In this document: piece by piece, positions 35,645 to 58,020 of the stretch | Layout of the letters: every line of letters starts with the position of its first letter | Position numbering within the stretch: position 1 is the stretch's first letter | Assembly (NCBI GenBank): GCA_030549495.1 | Contig: JAUIRK010000196.1 | Span: 62,001 to 126,000, forward strand | Direction of reading: 5' to 3' | Source of the DNA: Nectonema munidae | Taxonomy: Eukaryota; Nematomorpha; Nectonematoida; Nectonematidae | DNA: 64,000 bases | Position numbers and translations under genes: made by a program | Notes under the pieces: model-generated | Database searches by the model: none | What the model was told of the DNA's origin: nothing | The model's input: the letters and a program-made list of their open reading frames with translations, nothing else

Positions 35645-36823
35645 GAAGAACTATTAAGTAAATGCTTCAAGGCTAACTCATTATTGGCAGATCTTAGTGA
35701 CTTTAAATTATTTAAACTATGGCAATCTTTCGAATTGCAAATATGATTCGAATTTAAATTGTTAGACTCGCAAATATGACACAATTTAGTTTCTTTATTA
35801 TTACATTGACTAGAAAGATGGGACAAGCCACAAAACCTACATGTAGGATTTGATTGTTCGCAGTTAATTGCAATATGATCATGTTTATTACATTTATAAC
35901 AAACTTTTACGTAGCCACGCAGTAAAACTAATTCATAAACACTACAATTAAAATATACAAGCTTCCTTCTAAGGATATCTTTAACAATTTCCAGTTTAAA
36001 TTTAATACCTATATTACAATAATTTTTATCTTTACCTTTAAACTTAAATATACTTAAAACTGAATCACTGTCAATGTCATTTTGAACACAAATTGTTTCT
36101 TTTATATAATTAATATCAAAATTATTATTCATATAAAACTGAATCACTGTCAATGTCATTTTGAACACAAATTGTTTCTTTTATATAATTAATATCAAAA
36201 TTATTATTCATACCAACTAAACAAAAATAGGGAGACTTTGCAGGAAGATCTTGGTAGGTAAAATTATTGGAGGATAAATTCTTTTTCAAAATATCGAGCT
36301 TCTCTGTAGATGGGGACTCAAGAATTAGTGATTTATCTTTTAGTCTTCTGAATTTATTGAAACAGAGCTTGTTAGTTATAGGTTGAAGCTTCTCATTAAT
36401 TGTTTGAACAGTGTTAGGTTGTGATGCATCGAAGAAGTTACAAACTTGAACAGACAAGTCAGGATTGAAATTCCAAACATTCTTATTTTTTACGATTGAG
36501 GGTTCAAGATTTTTTTGAAGAGCAGCAGCATAAGTATTTTTGATATATGAACTTTGCAAGGAAATTTTCTTACTTTTTATATCACCAAGAGCATCAACAT
36601 TATTATTGGAGGCACACATACTATCAATTTTTTGATTCAAAACATCAATTTTGTTACTCACAGTTTTAATGTTGATACCATCAACAGAAGAAAATTCTTT
36701 GTTGAGAATATGAATCAAAGCTTTCGAAATACTCTTTTTGGAAACTTCGCGACTCAGTAAGGATTTCAATCCACCTGATCTAGCAATGTTAAGAACATTT
36801 AAAATTTCTTCAGTCATATTCAA
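35641..36823 (-). pseudogene. LINE ORF1 (CCHC gag-like), broken by a 79-bp tandem duplication
   Basis: The N-terminal part (36823 down) starts MNMTEEILNVLNIARSGG and is Ser/Lys-rich. The C-terminal part carries zinc knuckles CYKCNKHDHIAINC and CRFCGLSHLSSQC, then CHICESNNLNSNHIC. An exact 79-bp tandem repeat (36055-36133, 36134-36212) shifts the frame. Because 1183 minus 79 is 1104, a multiple of three, a single copy would give one 367-residue ORF; this arithmetic supports the duplication as the only defect. RNA-binding protein of the LINE ribonucleoprotein. The duplication may be real or an assembly error. Confidence 0.85.
36055..36212. repeat. exact 79-bp tandem duplication in LINE ORF1
   Basis: Two identical 79-bp units, 36055-36133 and 36134-36212, with mismatches immediately outside on either side. 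No divergence between units, so very recent or artefactual. Confidence 0.95.
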
Positions 36824-37812: not shown

Positions 37813-38282
37813 AAAAATTCACCATCAACAAAAAAGAAAAATTCCAAAAGAACAGCAAGAGAATTTTTTAATTGTGATCAAAATGGTATGATAATAACTT
37901 TTCCTTGTTCTTCTGAAATTATATTTGTTTTTTAGAAGAATTTAGCGAATGTTCATTGAATGATGCGCAAGAAGTGTTGGATTCTTTTGAAAACTTTGAA
38001 AATAGAGATAAGGAAAATTTTTGTTCTGCTCTTAAAATAACTTTTCCAAGTAGGAGAAACGCAGTAGAAGCTATGATTGGAGAAAATGTATACTCTATAA
38101 ATAAAAAATATAAATTTTTAAGAAGTTTGAAAAACGTAAGCTTTTTTTGAAATTTTGTAATTTTATATATTTTTTCTATTTAGATTGAGGAAGAATTTTA
38201 CTTGTTGAAGCCTGAGTTGAAAAAAGAAGCAATAAAAGAAAACTGGAGTGTTTTGTTTCAAAGACTGAAAAATTGTTTATAA
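37813..38282 (+). CDS. unknown small protein, three-exon model with ~50-nt introns
   Basis: Exons 37813-37885, 37936-38135 and 38184-38282; introns 37886-37935 (GTATGA...TTTTTTAG) and 38136-38183 (GTAAGC...CTATTTAG). Phases match across both junctions and give one continuous reading of about 123 codons ending in TAA, followed at once by AATAAA (38282-38287). The start is unclear: the first exon opens after an in-frame stop at a GAAGTAG that could be an acceptor. The protein begins basic (STKKKNSKRTAREFF), then acidic (SLNDAQEVLDSFENFENRD), then ITFPSRRNAVEAM and INKKYKFLRSLKNIEEEFYL, ending WSVLFQRLKNCL. I do not recognise the family; similar short Pro-Ser-Arg-Arg...Phe-Leu proteins occur in transposon contexts. 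A possible further coding piece, DSFEELSEKTSNINSP, follows an acceptor at 38512. Confidence 0.4.
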
Positions 38283-38642
38283 ATAAATTCTGATGTAAGA
38301 GTTTTTTTGTTTCTTCAGAAATGTATATACATTAAGTATTTTTACAGGAGTTCCAAAGTTTAGAAGAATTCATGATTGAATATAAAATATTGAAAGTTTT
38401 AGAAAATAAGTTTAAAGTCAAGAAAAAATCAAAACAAAGTTTTTTTAATGGAAGAAATAAAAGTATATATTTTAATTTTTATAAGTATTCCATTATATTC
38501 TAGTATTTTAGGATTCTTTTGAAGAACTGTCAGAAAAAACTTCAAACATAAACTCGCCACCCAAAGCTCTTAATTTTTCTAGAAAGCAATCAAGTTTCAA
38601 AAATCAAAATAGTTGCCGATGGATTGATTTACACCTGTGATA

Positions 38643-39690
38643 ATGATATCAAGATGGCAATAACCTGGCTACTACAGATTTATTTTGTGTTTGACTTACA
38701 CTATCCAAAAAGTTTTCAACTTTTGGGTTTTCTGCAAAAAGAAATTTTGGAGGATTCGAGTCCGTTATATAAGTGATCAAACCTTATTTAATTTGAAAAA
38801 TGTTATAAAGAATTTTGATGTAAAAACCGATTTTTTTCTCTATATATTGAAAGTAGTTTGAATAAAGTTTTTAGACTCATTTTTTTATAACATTTTTAAG
38901 CTTAAATTTGTCCAAATAGTTTAGTAACAAATTATACGTATAAACGGTAAACATAAATCATATTTAAAATGATTACGTCAGAAGCGTTTAAATCTATACG
39001 CCTCAAATTATGTTTTAGTATAAACGCGTTATATGTAAACGCGTTTAAAAGACGAGACACATTTGACGTTTAGAATTGTGTTTAGATTCAAAACACATTA
39101 TTTATAGTGTACCCTTTCATTTTTTGTTTCGGTAAAAATACTTATGAATAATGTAAAAAATAAAATCAACTCCATAACGGTATCAAGAATTCGTTTTTAA
39201 AAAAAGTTTATTTTTATAATTTTATAAATTTTTAATTTAATAAAGTTTTATCGAAATATAATTAAACTAAAAAATTTTTAAATTTTTTAATCGTCTAAAT
39301 CTGGGGTGACCAAATTTTTCTTTTAAGCAGTCCAGATTTCCGAAAATTTAAAAAATTAGGCCCAGAATATTGAAAAGTTAAAAAACACTGGTATTATGAA
39401 ATTCCTATTAATACTTGTTTTAACAAAATAAAGCAAACTTTCCGAAGTTTTCCCTATGAATGTGACAAAGTTGATGCACTGAGAATAAATAAAAAGTTGA
39501 AATGAACACAATATATTTCAAAAAAACTTATTTTGTAACACCTATCAATAAAAAAAGTAAGCTTTCGGGCCAGGTAAACTTACTCCGCGGGCCTAAACAT
39601 TAAAATTTCATTTTAAATATGGGTCTTTGCAAAATTTGATGGACTTCAAATTTCAAATATTCTTATACCAACGCCTCTAAAAAGATTGTA
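38643..39690. other. AT-rich non-coding stretch
   Basis: Contains local AAACGCGTTTA-like repeats near 39000-39050. No gene. Confidence 0.35.
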
Positions 39691-39733
39691 AACCTTATGT
39701 GGGTTCACATGGACCATGTTGAAAAACTCTGAT
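39690..39733 (-). mobile_element. end of a hAT-type MITE
   Basis: Reverse complement reads AGAGTTTTTCAACATGGTCC then ATGTGAACCC, matching the start of the element at 6322 (CAGTGTTTCTCAACATGGTC, ATGTGGACCC). The opposite end was not defined. Confidence 0.4.
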
Positions 39734-40158
39734 CTATACTGAGGGCAATTTTAGTGTAGTGGGCAAAAATTCCAAATATCAAGATCCTCAGGACGATCAC
39801 AAATGCCAACACTTGAACCTGTGTTAATCTGTTCTATAACACCTAAACTAAACCAATCATGAAGGTTAACTTCGGTTTCATCATTAGAGATGTTTCCTAG
39901 TTAGAGAGACTACATATGATCTTATTTTTGTGTTTAAAACATAAAAAAAATTACATTTCAATGAAGCATTCTGACAAAAGGTTTAATTGTTAACTTGCTT
40001 TGTTATTTATTTTTTGTGCGTTATACACCATGCCTTTGAAAGTATTTATCATTATTTGCTAATATGCTAAATCATTAATAAAATAACTTCTAAGTTAAAA
40101 TGTTCTCTTTACAGCTAAAAAATGTGTAAATAAATAATAGGAAGAAACTTTATATATA

Positions 40159-40164
40159 TTTATT
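40159..40164 (-). promoter_or_regulatory. poly(A) signal of the neuropeptide-like gene
   Basis: AATAAA on the minus strand about 90 nt beyond the stop codon at 40253, well placed for a terminal exon. Confidence 0.5.
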
Positions 40165-40252
40165 TAATGCTTTTGAGACAAAAATAAAACATGGATACAA
40201 TAGTTAATAAGCACTGTAAAATTACATGAAAAAAGTGATGTGCTATTAAATT

Positions 40253-40316
40253 TTAGCGACCAAATCCAAATGCCATTCGGTTCACGTCCATCATCCTTCT
40301 CTTCTTTTCTTCAGCT
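40253..40316 (-). CDS. neuropeptide precursor-like gene, last exon
   Basis: A strong acceptor (CTTTTCTTTTTGAATTTTGTAG) precedes 40316, with a branch-like TTGCTCATAC upstream. With two bases carried over from a preceding exon, the frame reads R, AEEKKRR, then MMDVNRMAFGFGR and a stop. KKRR is a classic prohormone cleavage site and the terminal Gly-Arg a C-terminal amidation signal, predicting MMDVNRMAFGF-amide. The phase is exactly that left by the exon ending at 55787, and its last peptide, RYRMSFDF-amide, is clearly related. The exon is too short for an ORF scan to find. Joining the two needs a 15.5-kb intron and is inference; other exons may lie between. Confidence 0.55.
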
Positions 40317-41221
40317 CTACAAAATTCAAAAAGAAAAGTATGAGCAAATACGCCATTTTATTTTGGATAACATATCATCATAATAAACTGGTTGGCAAGA
40401 ATATATGGTAGGATAAAAATTTGAGATATTTCCAAAATTGGCTCTATATAACTTATAGATTGCAGTGTTTTATACAAATTTTGATACAGTGCCTTCACTT
40501 CATCGTAGAGCACTGAACGGTTATGGGTTTACTCTCTTTACGCAATCCCAATCCCGCCAATGGGCGAGTCTTAGTTTTACAAAATTTGCAGAGATGGTGA
40601 TAAAAAGATTTTATTTTCTGAAGAAAAGTGCACGACGAAAATGAGATGAACTTTGCATAGTCTGTTCTGTTTATAACGTTTTTTGAGTAAAATATGTATA
40701 TAAAGCTTCATTGTATTAAAAACATATACGCATGCAGTTAAACGTGTATTAAAATATTCTTATTCTTGATTTTAGTGGATAACGAATAATATTGCAATGG
40801 CATTAGTTAAAGTAATCAGTTAAAATGATTTAGAGAAATTGAATATGAGATATACAAATAAATATCAGCGCCAGGGCCCCTCTTGGTACTCTACTGAGAG
40901 AGGGGTGGGTCAGAGATGCACCCAAAGGTTAAGAGGGTGGGGGATACATCCACTCCAATGAGTCAAAAGATGAAAATGTGAAGTTCACAAAAAGATAAAA
41001 TCTACTGAATAATATTTTTAGTATTTATATTCAAGCACTTTTTGAAAAGGCTATTTTCAAATTATCTTATTTTTATTTATCTTTTGTAACACATTCCTCC
41101 ACAGCCAATTAGATGTCTAATTTAAAGTTATTGACATTATAATCGGCATCGGTAAGTAAGGACCCTTATATCATACAGCCATATAACGAATATAGATTGA
41201 TCGATTACTGTATATCTGAGT

Positions 41222-41404
41222 CAGGGGCGTAGCCAGAGGGGGGGGGTGGGCAAGGGGAGCAGTGCCCCCCCCCCCCCAAATACCTTTTCTGCCCCCCCCC
41301 CCCCCCAAATATAATTTTATTTCCAATATGCCTGCCCCCCTAAATTCCTTGCATGCCCCCCCCCCCCCCCCCCCCCCAACTTCCATTTTTTGGCTACGCC
41401 ACTG
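41222..41404. mobile_element. small MITE with GGCGTAGCCA ends and poly-C tracts
   Basis: Ends CAGGGGCGTAGCCAG (41222) and TGGCTACGCCACTG (41404) are inverted and resemble hAT termini seen in many animals. Between them lie runs of 12-20 C separated by AAATA-type spacers. No matching 8-bp flanks were found, so the insertion has decayed. Poly-C lengths are probably unreliable. Confidence 0.6.
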
Positions 41405-42058
41405 TTAGGACCCCCTACCACATATTTCTAGACAAGGGTTATATATCGATCTGAAGAATATGAGTGGGTATACATATGTTTTCAAAGATTTTTTAAAAAT
41501 GAGGCTTCAATAATATATAAAGAGTTATGTGTGTGCATACATGGGTGGAAAAAATAAACCCATGAAGTGCACTATAATTGCACACTACAACGATGCATCA
41601 CTTGACTGTGTTAATAAATTTAAAGAATAATATATATTCATTTAATGTATATTAATGAATATATATTTTTAAAGAATAATATATATTTTAATAAAATATT
41701 CAATCGTCCCTTATTTGGTTGCTGAATTATTGATTTTTGTTTAAAGAAGGAGAAGAAATTTTCATTGAACATTGAATATTTTGAATAAACTATAAATGCA
41801 CGTTAAATATAAAGCAAAAAAAATAAAACTGAAGTAATCACTGCTCTAAAGATCATAAGTGACCGCTTGGAAGGCAGAGATAAGAAATACAAGGTTACAA
41901 GTAGTGCAAATTATTGAAAATAAACAAGGCATGCTCTATTAGAAGTGAAATTGGAGAGTGTTTATGATTGTAGATAGTAATTAAATTAGATTCCATTATT
42001 TTTTTAGTTGTTGGCATCGCATCTAAGAGAAAAATATTCTTCCAGAACTCTACAAATT

Positions 42059-42216
42059 TCAAGTTTTTCCTCATTCTATTCTGATTTTTGTTGATTAATT
42101 TGAATGCTATTTTGTAAAAAAAAAGTGTATAAATATCATGACTTCTGCCTTTGTTTCAATAGTTTCTTTTTGCTAAATAAAGCTTAGTTAGGTTGTTCCC
42201 TTCCTTTTCTGACAAT
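42059..42216 (+). repeat. 5' LTR (partial) of a Ty3-like element
   Basis: AAGTTTTTCCTCATTCTATT...CTTTTCTGACA. It matches 43643-43808 throughout, about 85 percent by eye, and contains TGTATAAATA (TATA-like) and TTTGTTTCAATAG in both copies. Confidence 0.7.
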
Positions 42217-42253
42217 TTAAAATCAATTTATTTAGCAAAAACTCATTTCTTCT

Positions 42254-42960
42254 ATGGACAAAGTCATCCGTATGGAAAAATTTAAAACATCTTTTGCTGA
42301 TCCTCAGACGTCTAAACTTGGAAACTTTGGTACAGGAACTTTACGTATTATTTGTTTGTCATTGATTCACTCAGTCTTAACAAACTTGAAGTTCTTTACT
42401 TGTACCTTGGAACATTTGCTGCAGACATCATTGAAGGTTGTTCCAGTTTTGATTATGCAATTGACCTCCTAAAAGCATCTTAAGTATCGTTCACGCTAGA
42501 CATTTGCTTTCAACACACTTGCAGCAGAAAAATGAGTCTGTGGATCAATGCGTTAAAGTTTTAAGACGTTTTGTTGCCGTTCAAAGACATAAGTGCTGCA
42601 ATATACAGAGATGAGTCTGTTCGGGATTCTTTCATACGTGGACTTCGCTCTTCTGCAATACGTGCGAGACACTTTGAAAGTGGTGATTTGAGTCTTAAGG
42701 AAGTCACACAATGTGCTAGAGCTTCGGAACTAGCTCATCTTCGTGCTGAGGCCTACAACTTACAAATTACACCTGTAGCTGCTGTAACTACAACTACTGG
42801 TCTTCAAGAATTACTTACTAATTCTAATTTCTCTAAGAATATTCTGGCCGATTCTAACGATTCTCCAAAGTTGCCTGAATCAGTAAAACTTTCTGCTACA
42901 TTTCCAAAAACCTATTTTTCGAATTGCAAATGATTCATATGCGGAGGAAGTCGTCATCCA
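42254..42960 (+). pseudogene. gag remnant of a Ty3-like LTR element
   Basis: Starts MDKVIRMEKFKTSFADPQTS; after frameshifts continues NKLEVLYLY and then, at 42571, YRDESVRDSFIRGLRSSAIR and HFESGDLSLKEVTQCARASE. The RDESxRDxFIxGLxS block is a recurring gag motif of invertebrate Ty3/gypsy elements. About 42990-43045 holds VCLNCGKQGHFAKVC, a CX2CX4HX4C nucleocapsid knuckle. Structural protein of the element's particles; frame broken. Confidence 0.65.
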
Positions 42961-43036
42961 AAAGATAACCGTCGTTATTGTCTGCAAAAGATAAGGTATG
43001 TCTAAATTGTGGCAAACAGGGCCACTTTGCTAAAGT

Positions 43037-43333
43037 ATGTCCTTCTTCTTCATCAATTGCTCTTTTACTTCTGCTGTGACTCCAGCTCACGTTAGCCAAA
43101 GTCAAAGTTCTTTTCCCATTACCAACGTTGTTAAAGAAAAGAATAAAATTTTGACTGCTCTCATAGACACTGGAAGCTCCTATAATTTTATCGGTGAAAG
43201 TGTTGCAAAGAAACTGAAAATGCTTACCTCAAAGAGAGATTCTGTTATTTCCATGGCTTCTTCTGCTCTAGCTATTAAATTGTCTGAATATTGCACGCTA
43301 GATCTCGTGTGCTCTCACCAAAGTCAAGTATAA
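43037..43333 (+). pseudogene. aspartyl protease remnant of the Ty3-like element
   Basis: KILTALIDTGSSYNFIGESV carries the D-T-G-S active-site motif of retroelement proteases, followed by IKLSEYCTLDL. Directly after the knuckle, as expected for gag-pol order. Confidence 0.65.
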
Positions 43334-43640
43334 TCCTGTGAAATTGTTTCAAAATTTAACTCCTAAATGTATCCAAACGCCAGCAGATCTAGAACATAAC
43401 ATCCTAAAGATGCCTAAATTCATTGAAAAAGAGGTTCAAAAGATGCTCCAAGGAGGATGTAGTCGAGCTTAATCATTCTCCATGACGTGCTCAAGTTGTT
43501 GTGACATCTGGCTCTAATAACAAGAAAGGCTTAGTGGTTGGTTTTTCTCAAACCATTAATGGTTTAACTTGGCTCGATGCTTATCCTTTGCATCTTACGG
43601 ATTGAAGTGATTGTAAAGCGAGCTCTTGGCTTCTATTCTA
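43334..43640 (+). pseudogene. reverse transcriptase fragment of the Ty3-like element
   Basis: Frame-shifted text FIEKEVQKMLQGG, then AQVVVTSG, GLVVGFSQTINGLTWLDAYP and RALGFYSNSKFF. The TIN-x-L-T-x-L-D-A-Y-P string is the start of the Ty3/gypsy RT domain. The rest of RT, RNase H and integrase is deleted and the 3' LTR begins almost at once. Confidence 0.6.
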
Positions 43641-43642
43641 AC

Positions 43643-43808
43643 TCCAAGTTTTTCCTCATTCTATTCTGATTTTTGTAGATTAATTTCAATGCCATTTTGT
43701 GAATAAAAGTGTATAAATACTAAAACTTCTTTGTTTGTTTCAATAGTCTCTTTTTTCTGAATGATGCCTTGTTAGGTTTTTCCTTTCCTTTTCTGCCAAT
43801 TTTATATC
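43643..43808 (+). repeat. 3' LTR (partial) of the Ty3-like element
   Basis: AAGTTTTTCCTCATTCTATT...CTTTTCTGCCA, pairing with 42059-42216. The divergence between LTRs shows the insertion is not recent. Confidence 0.7.
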
Positions 43809-43809
43809 A

Positions 43810-45929
43810 CTGACTAATCCTAACTAACTTTAGGACAAAAGCCGTATCATAGTTAGAAAGGCTCACACTGAGAAACCTACACAAGTTTTATTAGACATTC
43901 TGATTTCCCAAATTTTTAGAACCGTGGATTATTGGAAACCTAAAATTTTTCGGGGGCGAAGGAAAATTTGTTTGTTTCAAATTTCAATCTCACTTGATGC
44001 TTTAGTAGACCAAATGATATTTTAAGATAATTTTTACTGGACCTTGAAGAACGAAATTTCTTTTGATGATCGGAATGGCCCGTGTTTTTCTTATGATATG
44101 TAAAGGCTATTATTTTGAATATATTTGTGCACTTTAAAAATATTCAATTATGGTAAACAATATTTGGGGCACATCGACTTCCAAAACTTTAAACATTTAC
44201 ATCTTTCTTTATAACGAGCTCTTGTATTTGTACTCTTCAACATTGGGAAAAGTGCTAAACATCTTTTGAAAAAATTAATTTTGATTTTTCATAATCTTAA
44301 TCCAGACATTTTAAATCCAATAGCAGGTGCAGGGTATATTTATACCCGTCTGAGTGAAAATTGAGAATTTTTTTCTAGATCTTCTTTATATATTGAAAAT
44401 TCTTTATGCATTATATAAAAAATGGAAAAGCAAAGTTTTGAATAAAACAAAAAAATTGGTTTATCAGAAATGAGCAAAATTATTTTGAAGTAAAAAAATC
44501 AAATAAATTTTTTTTGCTACCGATTGACTTCAAATTGTTAAAAATTTATCACATTAAAATTTCATCCTGTAACAAACGCTTTACATAAATTATTGCGTCT
44601 TAGGAAAAATTTTAGTATTTTATTATTTTTGTAAATTAATGTTTTAGAAATACTTTGAACAATAATAATAATATATCATTATTAATAAACTTTATTATAC
44701 AAAGGAAGCCTTTGTTCCTACCCATCTCTTTATATCCTCGAAGTGCTTTAAAGTCAAAAATCAAACCAAAATCCCAACTTTAAACAGCCACAAAAAATAA
44801 AAATCATCACTCTAAGAAGTTAAATATTTTCACCCAGCACAGAAATCACCAGTAAAATCCATATTGAAATAATTATTATTTTTCCGAATATAAAATTTTT
44901 GTATCTGACCCATTTTTGTTGGAGGAAACTATAATTTTTTAAGTAGAATGGACAAAATCTTTTTTAAAGATCACAGATAATAAAACTTGCTCTTATTATG
45001 ATCAAGTTAATATATCCATACGATATATCCATCGTAAATTCTGCTTCATGATGAGTTACGTTTCATTTATTGCGATGTCAAGCCGATTTGAATGCTTAAG
45101 AAAAATAAAGGTAAACTCTTGGACAAGTAAAGTTTTTGTTAATTGTATAGAAGAGAACTTTATTAAAACAGTGGTCAATAGCGCAATAACTTATGCTTTA
45201 AAACCAAGTCTACAAAATTTGCAGTGTAGAGATTTGTCCGTTTAAGAATTAATCACCCAACTAACTAACAAACTATTCATCTATTGACTAACTAAGTTAC
45301 TAACTAGCCACAGAATAACTAAGAAAAATGCATTTAAAATTTAGAAAGAAACTTTTATGGAAGGCCAATTTTTTACAAATATTAAGCTGAAGTGTTCACT
45401 CTGGAAACTTTCTTTCGGCAGATGCCTTAGATCCTACAGATCAACTTGCTACTAAAGGAGTAACATCATTTGCTGGTTTATTATTTTAATGGTTTTAACT
45501 TACCACATTTTTTTTAAGAAAAGCATATTTTATGAAAGTAATAATGAACAATTTTCAGATGAAATGTTTGTAGACGAAAATGATGTTTATGTTCAAAGAT
45601 ATTTTTAAAGCTCAAGTTTTTAAAGTAGATAAAAAAATTCGATATATAGCATAAAAATGAGTACAAAAAAGAAAAAAAAACTACAAATTTAATTAAAATT
45701 GTGGCCTTGCTTTTAACTTAAGAGTATATATAAAATATACATTAATATATTAATTTGTTCGTTTCTTCAGTAAAAACAATAAAATATTTTGGCCTGTACT
45801 ATTGAGGAGAAATGATTTAGGATAAATTGTATTGTGAATATAAGCCAAAGAAAAGCCAAAAATTTGATTATGTTCGTAATATTAATTATCGTAGTCGTGG
45901 ATAAAAAAACCAAATTTTATGGCAACAAG
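43810..45929. other. AT-rich non-coding stretch with relics
   Basis: A near-palindrome GGGTATATTTATACCC lies at about 44333. Near 45778-45815 AATAAAATATTTTGGCC repeats the block found at 13690 (piggyBac-like relic). No intact gene; presumably intron of the neuropeptide-like gene. Confidence 0.35.
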
Positions 45930-45938
45930 AAAATTTTG

Positions 45939-46695
45939 GTGACACGACATTTCAACAACGAACATTTCAACGAAGGGTCAAACCAATCAAAGACATTCCA
46001 ACCAATCGACAGTTCAACACTAAGACATTTTTAACCAAAGCATATTTCAGCAATAAAAATTTTAACTTGATAAAGAAAGTAGATTTATTCTTTCATTCAA
46101 AAATATTGCTCGACTTTTTTCGCTAAAATTCTCAAAATTTTAAATTGCTCAATGTATCGCCAAATTTGAACCTTTTTCAATAGATATGAAAGGGTTAGGG
46201 TTAAGGATTAGGGTTGATTTTGTCAATAAAAAAGTTTTCTATAAGCTTGACTCAAAAGATATACTTATAAATTGAAAAAAATTTATTTTTAGTTAAAATT
46301 TAAATATAAATGCTTAAGGTGAAATAACAGTAAATATTTTATTTAAATGGTATATATTAGAAATGCGCTTTTTAGACTTAAAAACAATTTAAAACACTTG
46401 TTATTTAAAATCACATCAGTGTAAAATTATAGAAAATTTTGTAAATTAAATCTATGTAAAAAATTCCAAAAAAGTTTACATAGAGATCAACAAAATCAAA
46501 ATTTAGTCCTGAAAATGTCACCATATGTGTAAATGAACATACAATGAAAATCTAATTGTTCAAAACTGATCATATATGCGTAACTAAGAGATATTTTTTA
46601 TCTAGTTAAAGAAATTTATTGTTGAAATATCCTTTGATTTAAATGTCGCATGGTTGAAATGTGCGTGCTTGAAATATTGGTGGTTGAAAAGAACT
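45939..46695. mobile_element. foldback-type element FB-c
   Basis: The left arm (45939-46065) has CGACATTTCAACAACGAACA, then CATTTCAACGAAGG and related units. The right arm (46617-46695), read in reverse, has AACCACCAATATTTCAAG, ACGCACATTTCAACCATGCG. Units are about 15-18 bp. Candidate flanks AAAATTTTG (45930-45938) and AAAATTTTT (46696-46704) match at 8 of 9 but are A/T-only, so weak. The centre has an AGGGTTAGGGTTAAGG run at about 46191-46217. No coding capacity. Confidence 0.6.
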
Positions 46696-46739
46696 AAAAT
46701 TTTTATTTTTGGTATAAAATAAATAATAAAATTTTTTTT

Positions 46740-46825
46740 AAGGTTTCTCCTTGATTAAATATTTATATTAAGTTAGATCAGTTCGAAAGATACAAATGAT
46801 TTAGTATAAGGCGTTTATATTATAA
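46740..46825 (+). repeat. 86-bp near-identical direct repeat, copy 1
   Basis: AAGGTTTCTCCTTGATTAAA...TATTATAA; two or three differences from 48714-48799. Unknown identity. Confidence 0.85.
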
Positions 46826-47308
46826 TAATATTTTTTTATATTATAATTTTTTTTTGTGTTTAGAATTGCAGAAAGACAATTTATAATTGGAAAGGAAAGA
46901 AATAGAAAATAAAATTAAAGAATAAAAGAAATAAATGTATATGCTCTACTTAAATTTTCGACTTTGCAGAAAGAATAAAAATATTCAAATTTTCAAGTAT
47001 CTCAGCCTTCATCAAGAATGATGTTGATAAGGGGTGATAAAAAGAGTATAAATTGAGTGTAAGGATGTGAGATTACTTAAACGGTGAATGTTTTTTTCTT
47101 GATAATATAAATATAAGATATAGTAATTATTTTTTGGAAACTTGAGATTGTTGAGAAAACACAAAATATATCGTTTTTACGCAAAAATCCGTTAAAATAT
47201 AAATTTTAAATCTATATTTGATACGAGTAAGAGTTATAAGCGAATGAAACACAGCCATGTTCTGCTGAAAGCTTTTTTAACGTCAAATTTTTTGAAAGGT
47301 GAACTTGC

Positions 47309-47445
47309 TTAACGTGTTAACGATCAGAGTCAACTATAGTCGACTATATAAAAATATGATCGTCTGCATTTATAAATTATTTTTAATACAAATCGTCTGC
47401 TTTACATCACATATCGTCTGATTATTCTGGTCGTTAACGGTCAAC
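47309..47445 (-). mobile_element. TTAA-flanked MITE, copy a
   Basis: In reverse orientation to copy b. Shares CGTTAACG ends, ATCGTCTGATTATTCTGGTC, and the TATAGTCGACT palindrome. See copy b. Confidence 0.65.
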
Positions 47446-47584
47446 ATTATTGAATAATGATTTTTCTTTGCTCTCTATTTACCATTATGGTTTCAAACAA
47501 ATATCAAATCAATTTAAAAACAAAGTTAAATATTTAAATGTTAAAGAAAGTGCTATAAATTAAATTTTTGATAAATTTAACCTA

Positions 47585-47720
47585 TTAACCGGATAACGAC
47601 CAGAATAATCAGACGATATCTAATGTAAAGCAGAAGATTTGTATTAAGAGCTTTGATAAACGCAGACGATTTTATTTTTGTAAAGTCGACTATAGTCGAC
47701 TCTAGGCGTTAACGGGTTAA
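47585..47720 (+). mobile_element. TTAA-flanked piggyBac-like MITE, copy b
   Basis: Bounded by TTAA at 47585-47588 and 47717-47720. Ends are CCGGATAACGACC and GGCGTTAACGGG, fitting the CCC...GGG termini and TTAA target of piggyBac elements. The interior has CAGACGATATCTAATGTAAA and an 18-bp perfect palindrome, AGTCGACTATAGTCGACT. About 135 bp, so mobilisation would need a transposase such as the piggyBac family seen three times in this window. Confidence 0.65.
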
Positions 47721-47836
47721 CTCGATAACGACCAGTTAATCACGGGATTTCTAATATAAAGTAGAAGATTTGTATTAAAAAGCATTTATAAAGTTTGTAG
47801 AGTAGACAATTGCCGACTCAGGTCGTTAGCAGGTTA
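47717..47836 (+). mobile_element. TTAA-flanked MITE, copy c (diverged)
   Basis: Abuts copy b: CTCGATAACGACCAGTTAAT, GTAGAAGATTTGTATTAAAA and TCGTTAGCAGG follow in the same order as in b, with losses including the palindrome. Confidence 0.55.
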
Positions 47837-47839
47837 CAC

Positions 47840-48713
47840 AATGGCTTCATTTTAGGGGGACAAGGAGACAAGTCCTATTCCTTCACTCTTTTTTTGTGTA
47901 AAGGAAGATAATACCTTTTGTCGCCTTCACTTTTTTGGGTAAGGGGCACATATTATCTTTCAGAATATAGAAAGAATATTTCGATTTCTTTTAGTTTCTC
48001 GAGCTACTTAGTGTCAATCTGATAGACATTTTAGCGCTCTTAGAAGCCTCAAAACGTAGCCGAGATCTCACATGATTCAACAGAGAGTAAATCATATTTT
48101 AGTATGTTATGTGCACAAAAATCTGTTAAAAACATTTACGAAGCAAAAGCAAAATTGGTCATTCATTGCAATGATTGGTTCAATTTATTTGGGAAGTTGG
48201 AAAACGTAAAATTAAACACTCATTTTCATTTTTATATTTTTTGATATAATCAAACATATAAAGAGAAAGCAGACAACTTTATTGAATTTCTTGTGATTTC
48301 AGCTAAAAACTAGAGACCCTCCAGTGTCCATTTTCGGATCATTGGTTTTATAAAGGGGTATAATCTTGTAATAATAAATTGATATAGGATGATATGCGAT
48401 AACGATGATAGTGATGATGTAACTGAACATAATGACGTTTCAGTTAAATAATGAAATTAAGGATGTTGATGAAATAGATTATGACAATGATATATAATAT
48501 ATATATATATAAGATAGTTTGGCTATGAATATATTATTATATCAAATTTTTTATGTTAGAGAAAATCAATACTTAATTTTAGCGAGATTTTTGTAAATCA
48601 TATTTATGTAGTTAATAAATATATAAATTTAATTAATATTGCTATATTTGTGAAATTAACTTTATTATACAAATATATACATATAATGGGTTGTTGTTTA
48701 ACGAATATTCAAT
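47840..48713. other. AT-rich non-coding stretch
   Basis: No supported feature other than a short (TA)n run near 48496-48510. Confidence 0.35.
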
Positions 48714-48799
48714 AAGGTTTCTCCTTGATTAAACATTTATATTAAGTTAGATCAGTTCGAAAGATACAAATGATTTAGTATAAGGCGTTTTTATTATAA
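48714..48799 (+). repeat. 86-bp near-identical direct repeat, copy 2
   Basis: Pair of 46740-46825, about 1.97 kb apart in the same orientation, enclosing MITE copies a to c. Confidence 0.85.
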
Positions 48800-49439
48800 A
48801 TACAAAGATATAGATGCGATGTCTTATGAACTATACATAATGTAAACACGTAATATTCATATTAAAAATCGTATTCATAAAATGTGTCATTTAACATTTA
48901 GATATCGTTGCTGTGTTAATAGAGTAAAAAGGAGTGATAAAATAAATGATTATTATTATTATATCAAATAAAATTCCATTATAAGAGTTAAAACTTTTAT
49001 ATAAAATTGCAAAATTCATAAGAAACTCATCCCAGACAGAGTGGAATAAGCATTTTTGTTTTAGGAAGGAAAAATTTTGCATTATTAGATTTTTGGTTGT
49101 CAAGTCAATTAAAAATAGGCATTCATTTTTTTAAAATAGGTTATTTTCATTTTTACGCTAAATGAGCAAAAATAAAGTCGTATTGAAAAGATACCACAAA
49201 AAGAGCATCATCATCAAAATGATAAAAAAAGTATATAGCATTATTATTTTTTTAAAGATATAGGAAGGAATAATGAGTATAAACAACAAAACTTAAATAA
49301 AGATTAGAAATGTATCCTAGATTTAACAGGGAAAGAAATAATTTTTCAACGCATGCTAGATTAAATAAGATTATACTCAAGATTACAAGAATATAACATC
49401 GGGTAGTGGCTAAACCAATAATATAAACTTCGTATTTCA

Positions 49440-49520
49440 ACAGATAGCCAAGTGGTAGGAGCGCAGAGTCTCGCGATCCAGTTGGCCTGGGTTCGATTAC
49501 GACCGTGACTCTTCTTACCA
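49440..49520 (+). mobile_element. tRNA-derived SINE-like sequence (S3)
   Basis: TAGCCAAGTGGTAGGAGCGC has the A box, and GGCCTGGGTTCGATTACGAC the B box, spaced as in a Leu/Ser-type tRNA. No good acceptor stem, so a SINE head or tRNA relic. The ORF that crosses it on the minus strand is not a gene. Confidence 0.55.
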
Positions 49521-50189
49521 TCTGTCTAGCTATGGAAGACCTTGCATGTGATAAAAACAATTAAAAAAAATTAAATTTTTTATTTTAAATCATCATATCA
49601 CTTTTTAGACATCTAATGACACAAATTCACTTCATTTATGTTGTATCGAGTATTTGATTGGTAGAAAGTTATCCAATAAATGAAAAGAAGAGCGATACAT
49701 GCATTCTTCAACATTGCCTTTCGATGATATGGGTTTTGTTGATATAACCTTTGTTCATAGTAATTAGATTATTCAAATAATTTTTTAACCAAAAAATTTA
49801 CCCCATAAGCAATAAAATGCACTTGTTAGCTTACATTTTTTGACAAATGTCAATTCGATTGATCTTTTCTGGTTATTACCACGAGTATCGTAAAAATATA
49901 CACGATCATTACAGAAACAGACTTAAGGTTTAAATAATCTAAATAGTTACTAACAGTATTTTATAATGATTAATTAACTATCCAGTTAATTACAAATATT
50001 TTATATAAAGGTCCTTTAATTTGTAAACTTGGAGAATTTTGTTCAAAGGAAAGAAAAAGAATTCAAATTAATTAATAAAATAATCATTATAGACGTTTTA
50101 ATGAGTATATAAATTGAATTTATTTTATTTTCAAAATGTTATGTTCAAGCAAAATAATAATTACAATGTTTCTATTGCATGTTTCTAAT

Positions 50190-50600
50190 ATTAGATCGAA
50201 AATTTTAGTTCTTATTCAATGTTATCTTTATAATTTTTTTTCCATGATGTATAGGTTTAAAGGAAGTGATATGATTACCGTTTACAACATTGCAAATGAA
50301 AAGTTGAAATTGTCTTCACAAATATTACCTGAGTTTTCTGAAAGACTATAAAGATTTCATTCCTTCAAGTTTAAAAAGCAACATTGCAAAAAGTTATATA
50401 TGAAAAGATTTTTTACTCAACGTATGATAAATGACTGGAATGCCTTCCCTGATTTTGTTATTAATGCCCCTTTGTTTTTAAAAACAGACTCGATGAGTTT
50501 TGGAAAGAAAAAATGTTTGAGCATGAATAAAGATCTGGACCTTCATAAATACGATGCGAATATTCTTCATAGGCTTTTTTGCCTCTTTTTTCGGTAATAA
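50190..50600 (+). pseudogene. LINE ORF2 C-terminal fragment (CR1/L2-like)
   Basis: MMYRFKGSDMITVYNI, then RFFTQRMINDWNAFPDFVIN. The string FxxRxxxxWNxxPxxVxxA is the typical last conserved block of CR1/L2-type reverse transcriptase proteins. Truncated at its 5' side as usual for LINE copies; frameshift near 50350-50400. Confidence 0.55.
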
Positions 50601-51546
50601 ATTATGTTATGTTAATTGATTTCAATTATTTAAAATTTTCTTACATTTAGACAAGTGGTTCTTAACTTTTTTTTTACAAATGGGCAAATTATGAACCAAC
50701 ATTGCGCTAGAGGTCCGCTCCAAGCTTAAAATCTGTTTTTATAAAAAGCCTTTTTTGATTAACTCTGAAATATTATTCTAGTTAGTTAAACTGAACACAA
50801 ATTGTTGCATATATATATCATAAAATTATCACATTATTCATAAATAATAAATCAATGAATTTGCGAAATTTTGATTCTTTTAATTTGATATTGTTAGCAT
50901 AATTTTCCTTCAACTTTGCTATGTGGGCCACAAAACAAGAAGTTGAGGGCAGAATGCAGTGAAATAAACGGAAACCTCTTTATATTCAACGCCCTAGAGA
51001 ATGATTTCAAAAAAAAAAAATTTCAGTATGCCACCTATAAAATAAAAAATTTCATGAACCTAAACCAGAAAAACTTAAGATTCAGGTGTTTAATTTGCCA
51101 GTAGAAAACAAGTTCCCAAATTTTTTCTTTTTCCTATAAATTTCAATCGTTTTATGCATAAATACTAACAGTCAAAAAATACTTGGGCTAATCAGTAGAA
51201 GTACAGATAACCGTAACCTTGTTTTTATCAACAAAGAGTGATCTTTGTGATTATGGATGAGTAAAACGTAGCATAATGAAATTAAATTTATTGGTAAAAA
51301 AGAACAAAGTAATAAAATAATTAGAAAGAATTGATTTACAACGATTTTATCTGATGTGCAAATTCAATACCTGGAGGTAGAAAAGAGCGCGAATTTAATT
51401 TAATTAAATTAGCCCATTAATTCTATTTCAAAATGGTGAAATTTTGATCTTAGTTCATCACAGTCACAAAGAAAGTTCCCATCACAAAGAAGCCATTGTT
51501 GATCTAGGAATAACACTACCATGATGTAAAGTAAATTAACAATGAT

Positions 51547-51603
51547 GGGCGCACGTTGCATGGTGAGACCTCTAAGGTCTCGGGTTCGATTCCTGATGTA
51601 CCC
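51547..51603 (+). repeat. D-armless tRNA-like fold, anticodon-position CTA
   Basis: 57 nt. GGGCGCA pairs imperfectly with TGTACCC (acceptor). GAGAC-CTCTAAG-GTCTC is a perfect 5-bp anticodon-type stem with a 7-nt loop, T at position 33 and CTA at 34-36. TCGGG-TTCGATT-CCTGA is a good T arm. Only 11 nt sit where a D arm should be. Downstream sequence to about 51700 (AGCACCACGGTCC) may be the SINE body, so this is probably a SINE head rather than a working tRNA. Confidence 0.5.
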
Positions 51604-51699
51604 AAAATAGAATCTCTTGTTGTAATCTGATGTTATTCGGTTAACGTCAGGAAGGTTTTCCGATCAAGAAAGCACCACGGTCCAATTAAAAAGTCGCAC

Positions 51700-52840
51700 A
51701 AGTTTGTAAGAACTTTTGTGGTTTTTTTTATTTTGGCTACAAATTCGTTGTCGGCTCGTTGTCTCTACGTCATATCTTCTATACTTTACAGTATGTAATC
51801 TTGCTATTCATTCTATGATGATCCTTTCTTGGTAGCCCTTTTTTCATTAGAAGTTTATTTTCTTCAATGTGTGTTTGAAAAAACTTTTTTAAGGCTTTAT
51901 TTTGAACAGATGTTTTCCTCTCTCAAAGCATTCTGATTAAAGAATCTCCTTGATGATCTTAGGATTTTTTTATCAGTATCGGGTATTTTATTATCAGGCC
52001 TGAATATTTGTCAACCAATCTCAGTTCAAAAGTTTTTTTCTGATGAATAATTCGTGATGTTCATTGTTCAATTAAAAAAAGTTGTCCACCTTCTTCATCT
52101 AAAAGATTCTATAAATTCTTTCACGCAAAAGGAAAAAGATGGACAAATTCAATTTAAATATAATATCTTGATAGTGACTAAATCCTCATCTATTGGCATA
52201 TGTGCTATTTTTAATAATTCTGACCTATTCTAAATTTTCAGATTTCCTACCCATCTTAGTTAAATGATAATTGTAATCCTGGATGATAAGCTATATAGAT
52301 TTAAACATTTTTCATTTGTAAAAGAGGAACTTCTTTTTTACAATCAAAATCTTTTTTAAAACATGTGATATTATATAATTAAACCACTTCCTAGTTCATT
52401 AGAACATTGTAGATCTTCCATTTAGTCAAGATACATATTTTTTTCAATAATTTCTTTTGATCACGCGTTCTCTTTTTAATTAGTTTTCAGGTTGCTTCCT
52501 TCTCTCATACAAATCTTCAAAAGATTTTATAATACGTTTTGTTTTTTAAAAATAAATATTTCATACTTAAGATGATTGAAGAAAGTATTATAAGCCAAAA
52601 TATACAACAAAAATATATTTTTACTATATAACTAATATATAACGATTTTTTGAAAAAAAATTTGGAAAACTGATTTTCAGGCATACATCACTAATTCAAT
52701 AGCCTCTTCAAGATATTTTTAACCGTATTAGCCAAAGTGGAGTACAGAAATAAAATAAGCATAGTCGATTTGGAATAAAAACAGATATTTTATTTAAAAG
52801 GCTTACGCCCCCTCCCATAGCACTAATAGGGTTAAGTTGC
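51700..52840. other. AT-rich non-coding stretch
   Basis: Only a relic of the dispersed repeat near 52750-52800 (see 24540-24790). Confidence 0.35.
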
Positions 52841-52844
52841 AATG

Positions 52845-53345
52845 ACACTTATCACAGAAGGAACCCCATCTGTAAACAGAACAGAGAAGGGTCACCAAAC
52901 AAAGGTCATGCTTAAGTAGAAAGGTTTCCAGTATTTTGTAAATATCTCATCGACAAGTTAATTTGATCAGTTCCTCAGAGAATAAGAGAAAAACTTCTTT
53001 GTCAATGTAGCAAACAAAAACATAGTAACTTTTCACGATAGTCGAAATCCCAATTGAAAATACTCACTCATGCCCAAGATCCGATATATGATCATATCAT
53101 TCAATAAGGGAATTGGCATCATTTGGTCTATCGCTGTCTCCAAGAATTATCTTGCTTGCTTCAACATTGCAAAGTTAAATGAGATCTTCACCAATGGTAT
53201 GAGGTTTCTTTGCCTGGCCAATTTTTAGAGCAATTCTATAGGTGGCCTCCATTGCTGTTTTGTTCTTACGAGCAAAAGGACCAGTAGAGACCATAATACT
53301 GATCTTTAGAGAAGCTACTTTTCGATTGAAGAAGCTTAAGCTTTT
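52845..53345 (-). pseudogene. hAT transposase fragment (Charlie/ZBED-like)
   Basis: At 53294-53175 the minus strand gives KTAMEATYRIALKIGQAKKP then HTIGEDLI, closely following the YRIAxxIxxxKKPHTIGExLIxPC block of Charlie/ZBED5-type hAT proteins as I remember it; then VEASKIILGD. Further on, YVFVCYIDKEVFLLFSEELI and DIYKILETFLLKHDLCL resemble the later catalytic-domain segment. In-frame stops and missing parts mark decay. A different hAT lineage from 14202-19611. Confidence 0.6.
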
Positions 53346-55537
53346 AGCCAGCAGTTAGCTGTGAAGATACTCAACATTTTTTCATGACTCCAAACGATAC
53401 AACAAGCGACATATTTCGGCATAATCACAGAGTTCTGAACGATACCCGTGAACCAATCTTGATAAAAGCATCATTGTATGTACGCATCTTGGAAAACATA
53501 TTGCGTACAGAAAACAAGAACATGAGCAAAGCGAATAGAATTTGCTTTCAGAAACTCACAGGAAATAAAGATAAAATACGAATTGATAGTTTATTAATAA
53601 AGGTTATTTAAAATGAATAATTGTGATCAAGGGAAGAAATAGATTTACAGCTTTTCAACAGGGTAGATATGTACCTTGTGTGTATTTTGATCTTAGTGTG
53701 TACATATGCCCCTCTTCCTCACATTTTTCATCCTTTCTTTCAGTGATTCGGATAAAAATCTTCGCTCGGATTTTTTCAGCCACGGCCTGTTTTCGACAGC
53801 AATCGGCATATATGCGGCGTTCTATATCGGTTTTAATTTTTTCACGGGCACATAATTGATATTTCAAAATTTCACTCGTTTATTTAGTGTGAGAGAGAGA
53901 GAGAGAAAATCCTTTATTTGAAGACACTTTACAAGAAAAAGTAAGCATAAAAATATGTATATATGTACCAGTTGGTGTTAACAAAATGATGATAAATTGT
54001 ATCTCAATTTGTAAAGCGTAAATTGCTGTTTGTAATGCCTTCTCTCTAGCTTATTATCCAAAAAGAATATACGATTTCTAAAGTCGCGTTAAATGACCGA
54101 AATCAAAGTATCTTATTTTCTTAAATAAACATGACGAAGAACATCGTATAAGTAAGGTCTTATAAATACTGTGAGATTCCCGTTGGTAAGTGACGGCAAA
54201 ACAGGAATATTCCCAGAAAACCGAGACATCTAACAACCCTATAATAGAATCATTGAAGACTAGAAAAGTTTGTGCGTAATTAAAGAGCACGATTTTATTA
54301 AAAAAAAACTATTTAAAAGAACTTCAAATTATTGACATTCAAACACTAAAAATGTTCAACTGAATTCATTGTTTCAAGCGCTTTAGTCACACTTGTGAAT
54401 GGCGAGTAGAGCATCTTTAACAATGTGATAATTGTATATCTTGATGTATGAACTATGTCTTCATTCTACCTACGAAATAATACTTGATCTTGAGAGAATG
54501 GCCTTTTTAATTACGAATTCAACAAAGTAAAGTTACCACTTGAAGGTCGTAACGTGTATTTTGTTTTAGTGGATGTTTTAGCCCATGCGCCTGAAATATT
54601 GTTTTCACGTTTACTCTAAATTTTAAAGCGATGTTTAAAAAAAGTTGCTAAGAAATATGTCAATTTGTGATTGATGGCAACGAAAGCCTCGTTCTCGAGC
54701 ATTTTTTAAGAAAGAGATCATTTTATCTTAAACCCACTCCCAATCATCCTTCTTATTTGTTTAAAAAGCATCCTTTTTTAATTGAAAAGAAATAAGAAAA
54801 TAGTTTTTTGATGGCAATGGTGTGAGAGAAGAAGTTTATTTGGTGGATATGAATATCATTTTTATGATTATATTATCCTTTGTTAAATAAAAATTTCGAT
54901 TCAAGAAACAATATCATTTTTTATAATAAAAGGCATTTTATGCTAAAAAAAACTTGATAGAAATGTGAAAAAAATGGAAAAGGTTAATTAAAACAAAGCA
55001 TAAAAATTTACTTAAATAAAACAAAAAAGGTATTTGCTGGGAAGGCTGTTTTACTAAAATACAATTTTACTTAAAAGAAAATCTAAGAGTCGTTATCAAA
55101 TGACTTCGTGTGAATCATTGAAAATAAGAAGTGGAAACTTTATAACTATATAGAAGTTAACAAAAAGTGGTAAAAATCAAGTTTTACCATTTTTATAGTA
55201 ATAGTACTTTCAGGATAAGTAAATTGGGAGCTTTTACTCAATTTTTTGAATAAATAAATATTTATAATATTTTTTTGTTATGTTAGCGATACCAATATTT
55301 GGATGATATGTCAATGATATAGAGAAATCTTTCGTTTAATATGATTTTTCAGTCAGATGTTTTAAAGTGAATTTACTACTACAATGGTATTTTAATTACC
55401 AAGAATAATAAAGTTATGCATGGTTACAGTAACCATTTAAAGTAGTTAGTGTAATCACATTTTGTTTTCAGACCAAGTTACTTGAAAGGCGAAAAGTTTT
55501 TTTTTTTAAATAAAATTCTTTGAAAGTTGACTCCTTC
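53345..55537. other. non-coding stretch, (GA)n tract
   Basis: A short (GA)n run at about 53889-53912 next to CCTTTATTTGAAGACAC, which resembles a LINE 3' region. Otherwise short meaningless ORFs; likely intron of the neuropeptide-like gene. Confidence 0.35.
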
Positions 55538-55786
55538 TTTATTTTATATTGAAAGTTTTAAAAGCGCCAAAACTATGCAATCTCATTTTATATTTTAGGA
55601 TATAAGCAAGTGATATGCATATTTTTCTAATCATCAAAATAATATTTTTCGTAAAAACACTCAAAAATAAATCCTGGTTGGATTGGGAATGTTCTTAAAT
55701 CACAAAAATTATTTACGCCTCCAAATTTTCAAACAAACGAAGCAGGCTCTCTGCATATAAGGGATAGGATTCATTTTAAATCTTAC

Positions 55787-56061
55787 CTTTTTCCAAAGTC
55801 AAAGCTCATTCTGTAGCGATCACGTAAAACTTTTTTACTTTTTTGATAGGGATAAACTGCGTCAGCCTTCTTCTCCTGACCCAATGCATCATCCATCAAA
55901 ATATCAAAGCCGAGAACATCGTCTTGAATGCCATTTTGATAATTATCGGGTTCGATTGGAGCGTAGAGATTAACTTCCCTGAGGTATTTTCTCATTTCTT
56001 TTGGAATCGTTGCAACGAACATCACAGATAGAACCAAAATTAACTTCGCCAAAAGTGTCAT
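55787..56061 (-). CDS. neuropeptide precursor-like gene, first coding exon
   Basis: ATG at 56061 opens a typical signal peptide (MTLLAKLILVLSVMFVATIP). An acidic spacer follows (IEPDNYQNGIQDDVLGFD, LMDDALGQ), then dibasic sites: KK before ADAVYPYQKS, KK before VLRDRYRMSFDF, and a final GKR. Gly-Lys-Arg predicts cleavage and C-terminal amidation (RYRMSFDF-amide). The codon for the last Arg is split by a consensus donor (AAAAG, then GTAAGA) at 55787; without splicing a stop follows immediately, so even the unspliced form is a complete 92-residue prohormone. The last exon at 40253-40316 fits in phase. Secreted peptide hormone or transmitter is inferred. No known family recognised: the core faintly resembles nematode NLP-1 FRMSF-amide, and Asp-Phe-amide is also seen in CCK. 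Confidence 0.65.
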
Positions 56062-56128
56062 TTCAAAGTCTGCTTTTTTCACTGTAATAATGTTCTGGTG
56101 TATCTTAATGAATTATATATATATAAGG

Positions 56129-56135
56129 GTTTATA
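56129..56135 (-). promoter_or_regulatory. TATA box of the neuropeptide-like gene
   Basis: TATAAAC on the minus strand, about 30 nt before a TTCATTA initiator-like site near 56100 and about 70 nt before the ATG at 56061. Confidence 0.45.
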
Positions 56136-56139
56136 TTTA

Positions 56140-57376
56140 TTTAGCTGACTGACTGCATGTTTCACAAATATTCAATCATGTTAACAATATTACTTAACCA
56201 ATGAGAAATGTGATAAGAAACTTTCGCAAGTGGCAAACTTTTATCAAATTATTATTATATATGCACACGTTTCCAAGTATACTCGTATGTGAACATTTAA
56301 TTGTAAAAATACGTCAAACTAAATTAAATTTATTGAAAACTTCAAAATTATTACATTTAAAAAAAGGAAGGCATCCAAGCTTCACACCAATGATAATAGA
56401 GTCAAACGAATAGAGGAAAGAAATGGTGAAATTGTGAGCACACCGTGCTAATTATATTTAACTATATTGATTAGGCAGAACTCAGATATACGCTCATCAA
56501 AGTAATATTCATTATATACATAAGCAGTGTATACAAACACACAATATTATATTATATTATATATACTTTTGAAAAGGAATGCTATAAAAATTTTGATGAC
56601 CATATTAATTTTATATCCATCTACGTATAGATGGAAGGAGTTGATACCTTTTTCTGATAACAATTAACATTTACGATGATAGGTTGTTGCTATATACTTT
56701 GCCATCCAGCGCACATCTTGGACTAAAATAATTCTCTGTACACATTGTTATATATATATATATATATGAAGTATTTTTCGGGACAAGATAATATTTCTCA
56801 CCAAGTGTCCTCTTTGGGCAAAGGCGATCTTTATTGGAAGAAAAGGGACCTGCTTTCCTATTTTGTTTTCGAAACTTTAATTCTTCAAATAGTACTATAA
56901 TAAGTTTGTCAGTCGCCATTTTCTCTTGTCGCTATTTATAACATGGAAATGTGCTAAACCCAAATAAGGTATAGCGTTGGTTTTTCAACTTTGTAAATTT
57001 TTGTCAATCTCCGAAGGACAACTACAATACGACGCTAACGGACCCTGAAATTTTGAAATGTAAACACAAAAAGCCATTTTTCACATACAACTTTTTGTAT
57101 AGTTTTCTTAAGTCAGAATAAAATGGGAAAAAGCAGCACAAAATAATAAAAAATAGAAGAAATTACTCATTAAGGATTTTTTAGCAGCTGAAATTGTTTT
57201 ACAAACACAAAATTAAATACATATCGAATCAACACAAATTGTCTTCAAGAGAAGATCATGTTGCTAAAAAATTAAAATAAAATAATTCTGAACGAAATAA
57301 AAAATTGGTCAACTAACAAATTAGATATTAGTCAAACTAATGTAAGTCAGGAATATTAATAAGTTTTTCGATAATT
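56140..57376. other. AT-rich non-coding stretch
   Basis: (TA)n microsatellite near 56750-56767. No gene supported. Confidence 0.35.
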
Positions 57377-57389
57377 TTAGATATATCTA

Positions 57390-58020
57390 TCATCATCATC
57401 ATCATCATCATCAAAGTGAGTAGTATCCATTTGGACGTGGGCAACCATGGAGCGCCAGAGTTGTCGATCTTTCATTTTCCTTCTCATCTCGGCTATCTTG
57501 TGATTGCATCCAATAACTTCTTTGAGTCCATCCGTGAATTTCTTCCGTGGTATTCCCCTTCCTCTTCTTCCTTCTATCATTTCGAATCAACCTTTCTAAT
57601 TCGACTTTTCTCTAGATGTGACCAGCAAAGTCTAACTGTCTCTTGTATATTGTAGTCAATAACATTCTTTTGGATTTAACTTTATTTAATATTTCTTCCT
57701 TCGTAAACCTTTGGATCCAAGATGTTCGTAGTACTGTTCTCCATATTTTCAGTTCAAACGCTTCAAATTTTCTTCTCGAGTATTTGTTTATAATCCACGC
57801 TTCACATCCATATAACAATGTAAACCATATATATAGCATTTAACTATTCTTTTTCTCATATTTATTGATAATTTTGTATTCCTAAGTATCTTTCAGAATT
57901 TTTTCACTTCACTGTTTTCTATTGATATTCTCCTTCTTATTTCCTTATCAGTTCTTCCGTCCCAGTTTATTAAACTTCTTCGGTATACAAACTGTTCCGC
58001 TTGATCAATTCTTCATTTCC
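57390..58020 (-). pseudogene. RTE/L1-type LINE reverse transcriptase C-terminus
   Basis: Minus-strand text in shifting frames: INWDGRTDKEIRRRISIEN (about 57960), LLYGCEAWIINKYSRRKFEA then WIQRFTKEEILNKVKSKRML and RQLDFAGHI (57839-57612), then RRGRGIPRKKFTDGLKEVIG and DRQLWRSMVAHVQ (57570-57420). The order LLYGxExW, R-L-x-x-x-GH, GRGxPRKxWxD, D-R-x-x-WR is the familiar C-terminal tail of these endonuclease/RT proteins. 5'-truncated and frame-broken. It ends at a (ATC)n run at 57390-57413, perhaps its 3' tail. Confidence 0.7.

Follow-up and report, generated by a model that had tools for sequence, protein, structure and literature searches.

Two short open stretches lie on the minus strand of a 64,000-nt span of genomic DNA (hereafter the window, whose coordinates we use, carried by the contig designated C166), and they raise the question of whether exons 15.5 kb apart can belong to one gene for signaling peptides. 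A preliminary description of this DNA had proposed that they form a neuropeptide precursor. Our analysis indicates that the locus quite likely holds a single-copy, two-exon gene for a 112-amino-acid (aa) secreted precursor of two related amidated neuropeptides, and that this gene is probably real and working.

Structure of the candidate precursor gene

Exon 1 (positions are collected in Table 1) opens with MTLLAKLILVLSVMFVATIP, which begins a coding part with a hydrophobic leader, dibasic KK sites and the first amidated-peptide motif, and it closes with KSKKVLRDRYRMSFDFGK-AG followed by gtaaga, a donor in phase 2. Exon 2 is preceded by a good acceptor, with a pyrimidine-rich tract up to ttttgtag, and its phase fits that of exon 1: it completes the split arginine and then reads AEEKKRRMMDVNRMAFGFGR to a stop codon. 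Conceptual splicing of the two exons yields a 112-aa precursor with the order leader, KK sites, RYRMSFDF-GKR, AEE-KKRR, MMDVNRMAFGF-G-R, stop. The leader reaches a hydropathy peak of 3.1 over 11 residues, a value taken from a hydropathy profile and not from a signal-peptide predictor. G+C content is 38% in exon 1 and 44% in exon 2 versus 29% in the intron, which also contains six other minus-strand glycine-basic motifs, none resembling either peptide. An Rfam scan of positions 38000-58000 gave no match.

The exon boundaries, frames, splice consensus and phase match of the preliminary description are all borne out by the sequence, and the polyadenylation signal that it placed after the exon 2 stop is present, although AATAAA is frequent in this AT-rich window (307 occurrences on both strands). 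The TATA box that it had offered as further evidence carries no weight, as TATAAA occurs 235 times on the two strands of the window.

Likelihood of a chance match between the exons

The rarity of the shared motif was assessed by searching both strands of the 211.6-Mb genome for a degenerate codon pattern of R-M-x-F-x-F-G in which the next codon could specify K or R. The pattern occurred at 10 places versus 17 for a backwards control pattern, which indicates that the count itself is at chance level. Of these places, eight do spell R-M-x-F-x-F-G; in one of the others Ser replaces Arg, and the last contains a stop. Exons 1 and 2 account for two of the 10 and lie on the same strand 15.5 kb apart, a proximity that is improbable: by our own arithmetic, the control density predicts about 6e-4 further same-strand places over that distance. 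This result agrees with the earlier claim that unrelated exons would be unlikely to share an R-M-(S/A)-F-x-F core. Two places elsewhere in the genome that read RMTF-N-F-G-K were rejected as a tandem repeat (L002) and a stop-broken frame (L003).

We also scanned 256 kb of the 263-kb contig, on both strands, for the architecture of exon 2, comprising an acceptor, a phase-2 frame, a dibasic site, a short peptide, a glycine-basic signal and a stop. Two candidates emerged (exon 2 itself and TIYNWK-GKK), compared with an order-3 Markov expectation of 0.25 per strand. A genome search with the precursor revealed no paralogue, in that two of its three matches were exons 1 and 2 and the third, at contig C210, had an E of 0.26.

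Proposed processing and a likely amidating enzyme

The conceptual precursor begins with an N-terminal leader, as judged by hydropathy, and its peptides carry basic sites on both sides and an amidation glycine at the C-terminal end; RMSFDF and RMAFGF would moreover be related peptides within one precursor, provided that the splice is real. That the gene is expressed and spliced, and that its product is cleaved, amidated and active at a receptor, is our inference. The signal peptide would route the precursor into the secretory pathway, prohormone convertases would cut it at KK, KR and KKRR, a carboxypeptidase would remove the basic residues, and the monooxygenase PHM would convert the C-terminal glycines to amides. 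The predicted products are (VLRD)RYRMSFDFamide and MMDVNRMAFGFamide, with the common core R-M-(S/A)-F-x-F-amide. Peptide release and action through G-protein-coupled receptors are established neuropeptide biology, and both amidated peptides would act on a receptor of this class.

A family search of the genome identified four matches to Cu2_monoox_C (PF03712). Two of these are short, PHM-like exons on contigs C619 and C561 that match chains of peptidylglycine alpha-amidating monooxygenase in the PDB (E 7.6e-4 and 5.1e-5, respectively), and the remaining two are longer and single-frame. On the strength of these matches, the genome likely encodes a PHM-type amidating enzyme.

Evidence against the precursor and rival gene models

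Several observations weigh against a two-exon neuropeptide gene. The criteria for motif rarity and for architecture were both set after the exons had been seen. With the mitochondrial RNA polymerase gene of the same contig as the codon usage reference, exon 1 scores 0.02 per codon, which is the best of its frames and well within the range of 48 stop-free window stretches. Exon 2, at -0.21 in its own frame, falls below the other two. One search of 5.8 billion proteins, which needed three shared 5-residue words, returned no homologue. The two PHM-like matches are fragments on different contigs, and one matched stretch contains a stop codon.

The absence of a homologue in that search, the unsupportive codon usage and a Pfam search of the precursor that gave no match would all suit a secreted protein of another role, or reading frames that arose by chance. 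Neither of these readings accounts well for two related glycine-basic C-termini together with dibasic sites, a leader, matching phases and a stop, and we consider them very improbable.

A further point against splicing is that the unspliced exon 1 reads GGA AAA AGG TAA, or G-K-R-stop, such that its frame enters a stop codon straight after GKR. Exon 1 alone could then encode a complete precursor ending in RYRMSFDF-GKR, with an AATAAA about 242 nt beyond the GKR codons, and the RMAFGF stretch would be a chance occurrence or part of a separate gene; alternatively, both forms could be made through intron retention, which would end the protein after GKR because the in-frame TAA overlaps the donor. 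That the stop overlaps a consensus donor speaks against this model. So does the presence, 15.5 kb away, of another RM-F-F-G core that has the matching phase, acceptor, KKRR site, amidation signal and stop, a combination improbable by chance. Because this second core exists, we judge the spliced form likelier than the unspliced one and regard the single-exon model as unlikely. The sequence supports the earlier proposal that both exons, which the predicted splice would join, belong to a single precursor of two related amidated peptides.

Relation to known peptide families

We next consider which known peptides the predicted products resemble. In the PDB, the precursor matched nothing better than E 0.15, and a full-text literature search found no paper with these peptide strings. 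For comparison, both peptides were scored from the C-terminus against a hand-picked panel of 13 known peptides. Peptide 2 scored highest (22, shuffle P 0.0001) against the NLP-6 peptide MAAPKQMVFGF; a full-text search for NLP-6 strings found no paper. A mollusc allatotropin-related peptide ranked second (19, P 0.0001), and NLP-1 scored 10. Peptide 1 also had its top C-terminal score against this NLP-6 peptide (11, P 0.004), with NLP-1 scoring 1. The best internal match of peptide 1 was the NLP-1 core, where RYRMSF aligned with FRMSF at a 6-residue score of 22, the panel maximum for peptide 1.

That the NLP-6 peptide tops the panel for both products when scored from the C-terminus raises the tentative possibility that the gene is its lineage's member of the nematode NLP-6/allatostatin-A-like family. 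MMDVNRMAFGFamide would then be its FGFamide peptide, and such a relation is compatible with a two-peptide precursor. Peptide 2 resembles the C. elegans NLP-6/NLP-5 peptides (allatostatin-A-like, with MGL/MGF/FGFamide ends) in its M-x-F-G-F-amide end, as in MAAPKQMVFGFamide, and those precursors also hold several amidated peptides. In contrast, only two peptides are predicted here, and peptide 1 ends in FDFamide and lacks the FGF/MGF end that peptide 2 has. The panel is hand-picked, the allatotropin-related peptide is nearly equal against peptide 2, and two further NLP-6 peptides score only 1 and 2 against peptide 1. A search for the nematode cuticle collagen domain, run without a positive control, gave 19 genome candidates, none passing. 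According to a review (PMC3414713), C. elegans nlp-6 encodes a peptide with an FGFamide ending, and to say that the predicted peptides match no known family would be too strong, since peptide 2 ends in the same way.

A separate allatostatin A gene was not seen in the genome. Codons for FG(L/F)GK(R/S) occur at 56 places genome-wide, no two on one contig nearer to each other than about 85 kb, and none of the 14 places read by eye was precursor-like, with the pattern requiring exact FG(L/F)GK(R/S). A genome search with PF05953 gave no match, but this is an 11-position model used here without an animal positive control. A chimeric query made of known neuropeptides produced no candidate on first inspection, a negative that carries no weight. 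At least one FGFGKR place (L053, contig C600:438200-439000) is by eye the endonuclease motif GGFGFGKRNKEG of a long interspersed nuclear element (LINE), which is a trap for motif searches based on FGF/FGL-amides.

Membership in the nematode NLP-1 (FRMSFamide) family, which the preliminary description had suggested as a likeness, appears improbable. C. elegans NLP-1, a listed ligand of NPR-11, is given as MDANAFRMSFamide in PMC3527849. It shares with the present peptides the R-M-S-F core and, with peptide 2, an early M-D-x-N (peptide 2 begins M-M-D-V-N). However, the amide of NLP-1 comes right after RMSF, whereas both peptides here run two residues further to F-x-F-amide and neither ends in RMSF-amide, and the C-terminal scores are only 1 for peptide 1 and 10 for peptide 2. 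The suggested likeness holds for the internal RMSF core, but the amidated end of peptide 2 is closer to NLP-6. From these sequence comparisons, we rank an NLP-6/allatostatin-A-type relation over one to NLP-1.

Arthropod allatostatin A (Y-x-F-G-L-amide) resembles peptide 2 in its x-F-G-hydrophobic-amide end. Unlike that family, peptide 2 has Met for Tyr and a final Phe for Leu, neither peptide ends in FGL, and two peptides are predicted in place of the many of allatostatin A. Peptide 2 also shares an R-x-A-x-G-F/Y-amide end with allatotropin and the mollusc allatotropin-related peptides, but the peptides here differ from allatotropin in having no GF(K/R) N-terminus, in not directly following the signal peptide and in numbering two.

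Lineage signals from the genome

The preliminary description had assumed an arthropod setting, an origin that our results leave unsupported, although not disproved. The mitochondrial RNA polymerase (L037:615-4184, equal to C166:49615-53184) is a single frame of 1190 aa that is 39-46% identical to its best 120 listed matches, among which are insects, mites, spiders, a tardigrade, a hairworm, molluscs, a rotifer and snakes. It sits on an exceptionally long terminal branch, at about 4 changes per column, and no close relative appears among the matches listed, in keeping with the diverged COI described below. Of six single rows placed as sister in the polymerase tree, the hairworm Gordionus was the cheapest (2.8 log units, p 0.27); Centruroides (p 0.23), Hypsibius (p 0.16) and Tribolium (p 0.12) were also unrejected, and Petrolisthes (p 0.025) and Haliotis (p 0.011) were rejected as sole sisters. 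The tree excludes no phylum tried because none of four whole groups was rejected (lophotrochozoans, p 0.24; malacostracans, p 0.22; hexapods, p 0.17; chelicerates, p 0.11).

COI (L040:1917-3518, contig C107, minus strand) is 52-55% identical to each of its best 120 listed matches, sponges and insects alike, and reads sensibly by eye when AGR is translated as serine and ATA is translated as methionine. It lies near the end of the 70.7-kb contig C107, of which 20 kb was read. Repeats of about 265 and 780 bases flank the gene and reappear at a spacing of about 3.5 kb, and past 5 kb the G+C content is about 28%, down from about 45%. The arrangement is suggestive of a mitochondrial circle with a single gene, or of a nuclear copy, joined to nuclear DNA. 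Long inverted repeats, which PMC10380579 and PMC6649704 describe in COI of freshwater hairworms, were not seen among the 25 of 30 pairs shown by a repeat search of L040:1-5000.

Searches for lineage markers gave nothing usable in support of an arthropod. Without a positive control, a SIFamide pattern matched two places with two mismatches, both rejected as stop-broken frames, and the Rebers-Riddiford cuticle domain was not found by a search that gave no signal anywhere. The exact 22-mer of the nematode SL1 leader was also not found, again without a positive control. Family searches of this type do detect an animal domain in this genome (PF03712).

Neighboring elements and feature coordinates

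Downstream of the precursor gene, a 990-aa open frame (32678-35650, minus) resembles by eye a LINE-like endonuclease and reverse transcriptase, and a frame with FLYWCH and MULE transposase domains in Pfam lies at 17361-18443 (minus). Within the proposed intron, a remnant of a retroelement-type aspartyl protease (43034-43333, plus) has an E of 1.3e-4, just under the Pfam cut-off. Frames that by eye resemble parts of an epsin-related ENTH gene occur at C166:182200-182619 and 197208-197750, which is 56-72 kb beyond the window.

Table 1. Positions of the proposed precursor gene and its parts within the window
Feature	Position	Strand	Basis
Exon 1 coding part: start codon, signal peptide, acidic spacer, peptide 1	55787..56061	minus	sequence; GC 38%
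Predicted signal peptide, about residues 1-21, cleavage site approximate	55999..56061	minus	hydropathy
Predicted peptide 1, VLRDRYRMSFDF-amide, after KK	55795..55830	minus	sequence; pattern with 10 genome places
Peptide 1 amidation glycine and KR	55794-55787 plus exon 2 first base	minus	sequence
Proposed 15.5-kb GT-AG intron with retroelement remains	40317..55786	minus	sequence
In-frame TAA overlapping exon 1 donor	55785-55783	minus	sequence
Exon 2: completes R, AEEKKRR-MMDVNRMAFGF-G-R-stop	40253..40316	minus	sequence; architecture scan
Predicted peptide 2, MMDVNRMAFGF-amide	40262..40294	minus	sequence
Peptide 2 amidation glycine; basic residue	40261-40259; 40258-40256	minus	sequence
AATAAA polyadenylation signal, starts 89 nt past stop codon	40159..40164	minus	sequence

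Significance of the predicted peptides

As far as we searched, the peptides are new as sequences, and the kind of gene is an ordinary and familiar one. A bolder and rather doubtful interpretation is that they represent an R-M-(S/A)-F-x-F-amide family specific to their lineage, in a phylum with almost no neuropeptide data (possibly hairworms). A single precursor would then unite the RMSF core of NLP-1 with the FGF end seen in NLP-6/allatostatin A, and the stop overlapping the donor might let intron retention determine whether one peptide or two are made. The locus also indicates that a short precursor divided by a 15-kb intron is readable from raw sequence. If expressed, the gene would add a peptide signal, with a core that we did not find in print, to an apparently poorly sampled animal lineage, and it would provide a test case for the relation of NLP-1- and NLP-6-type peptides of nematodes to allatostatin A.

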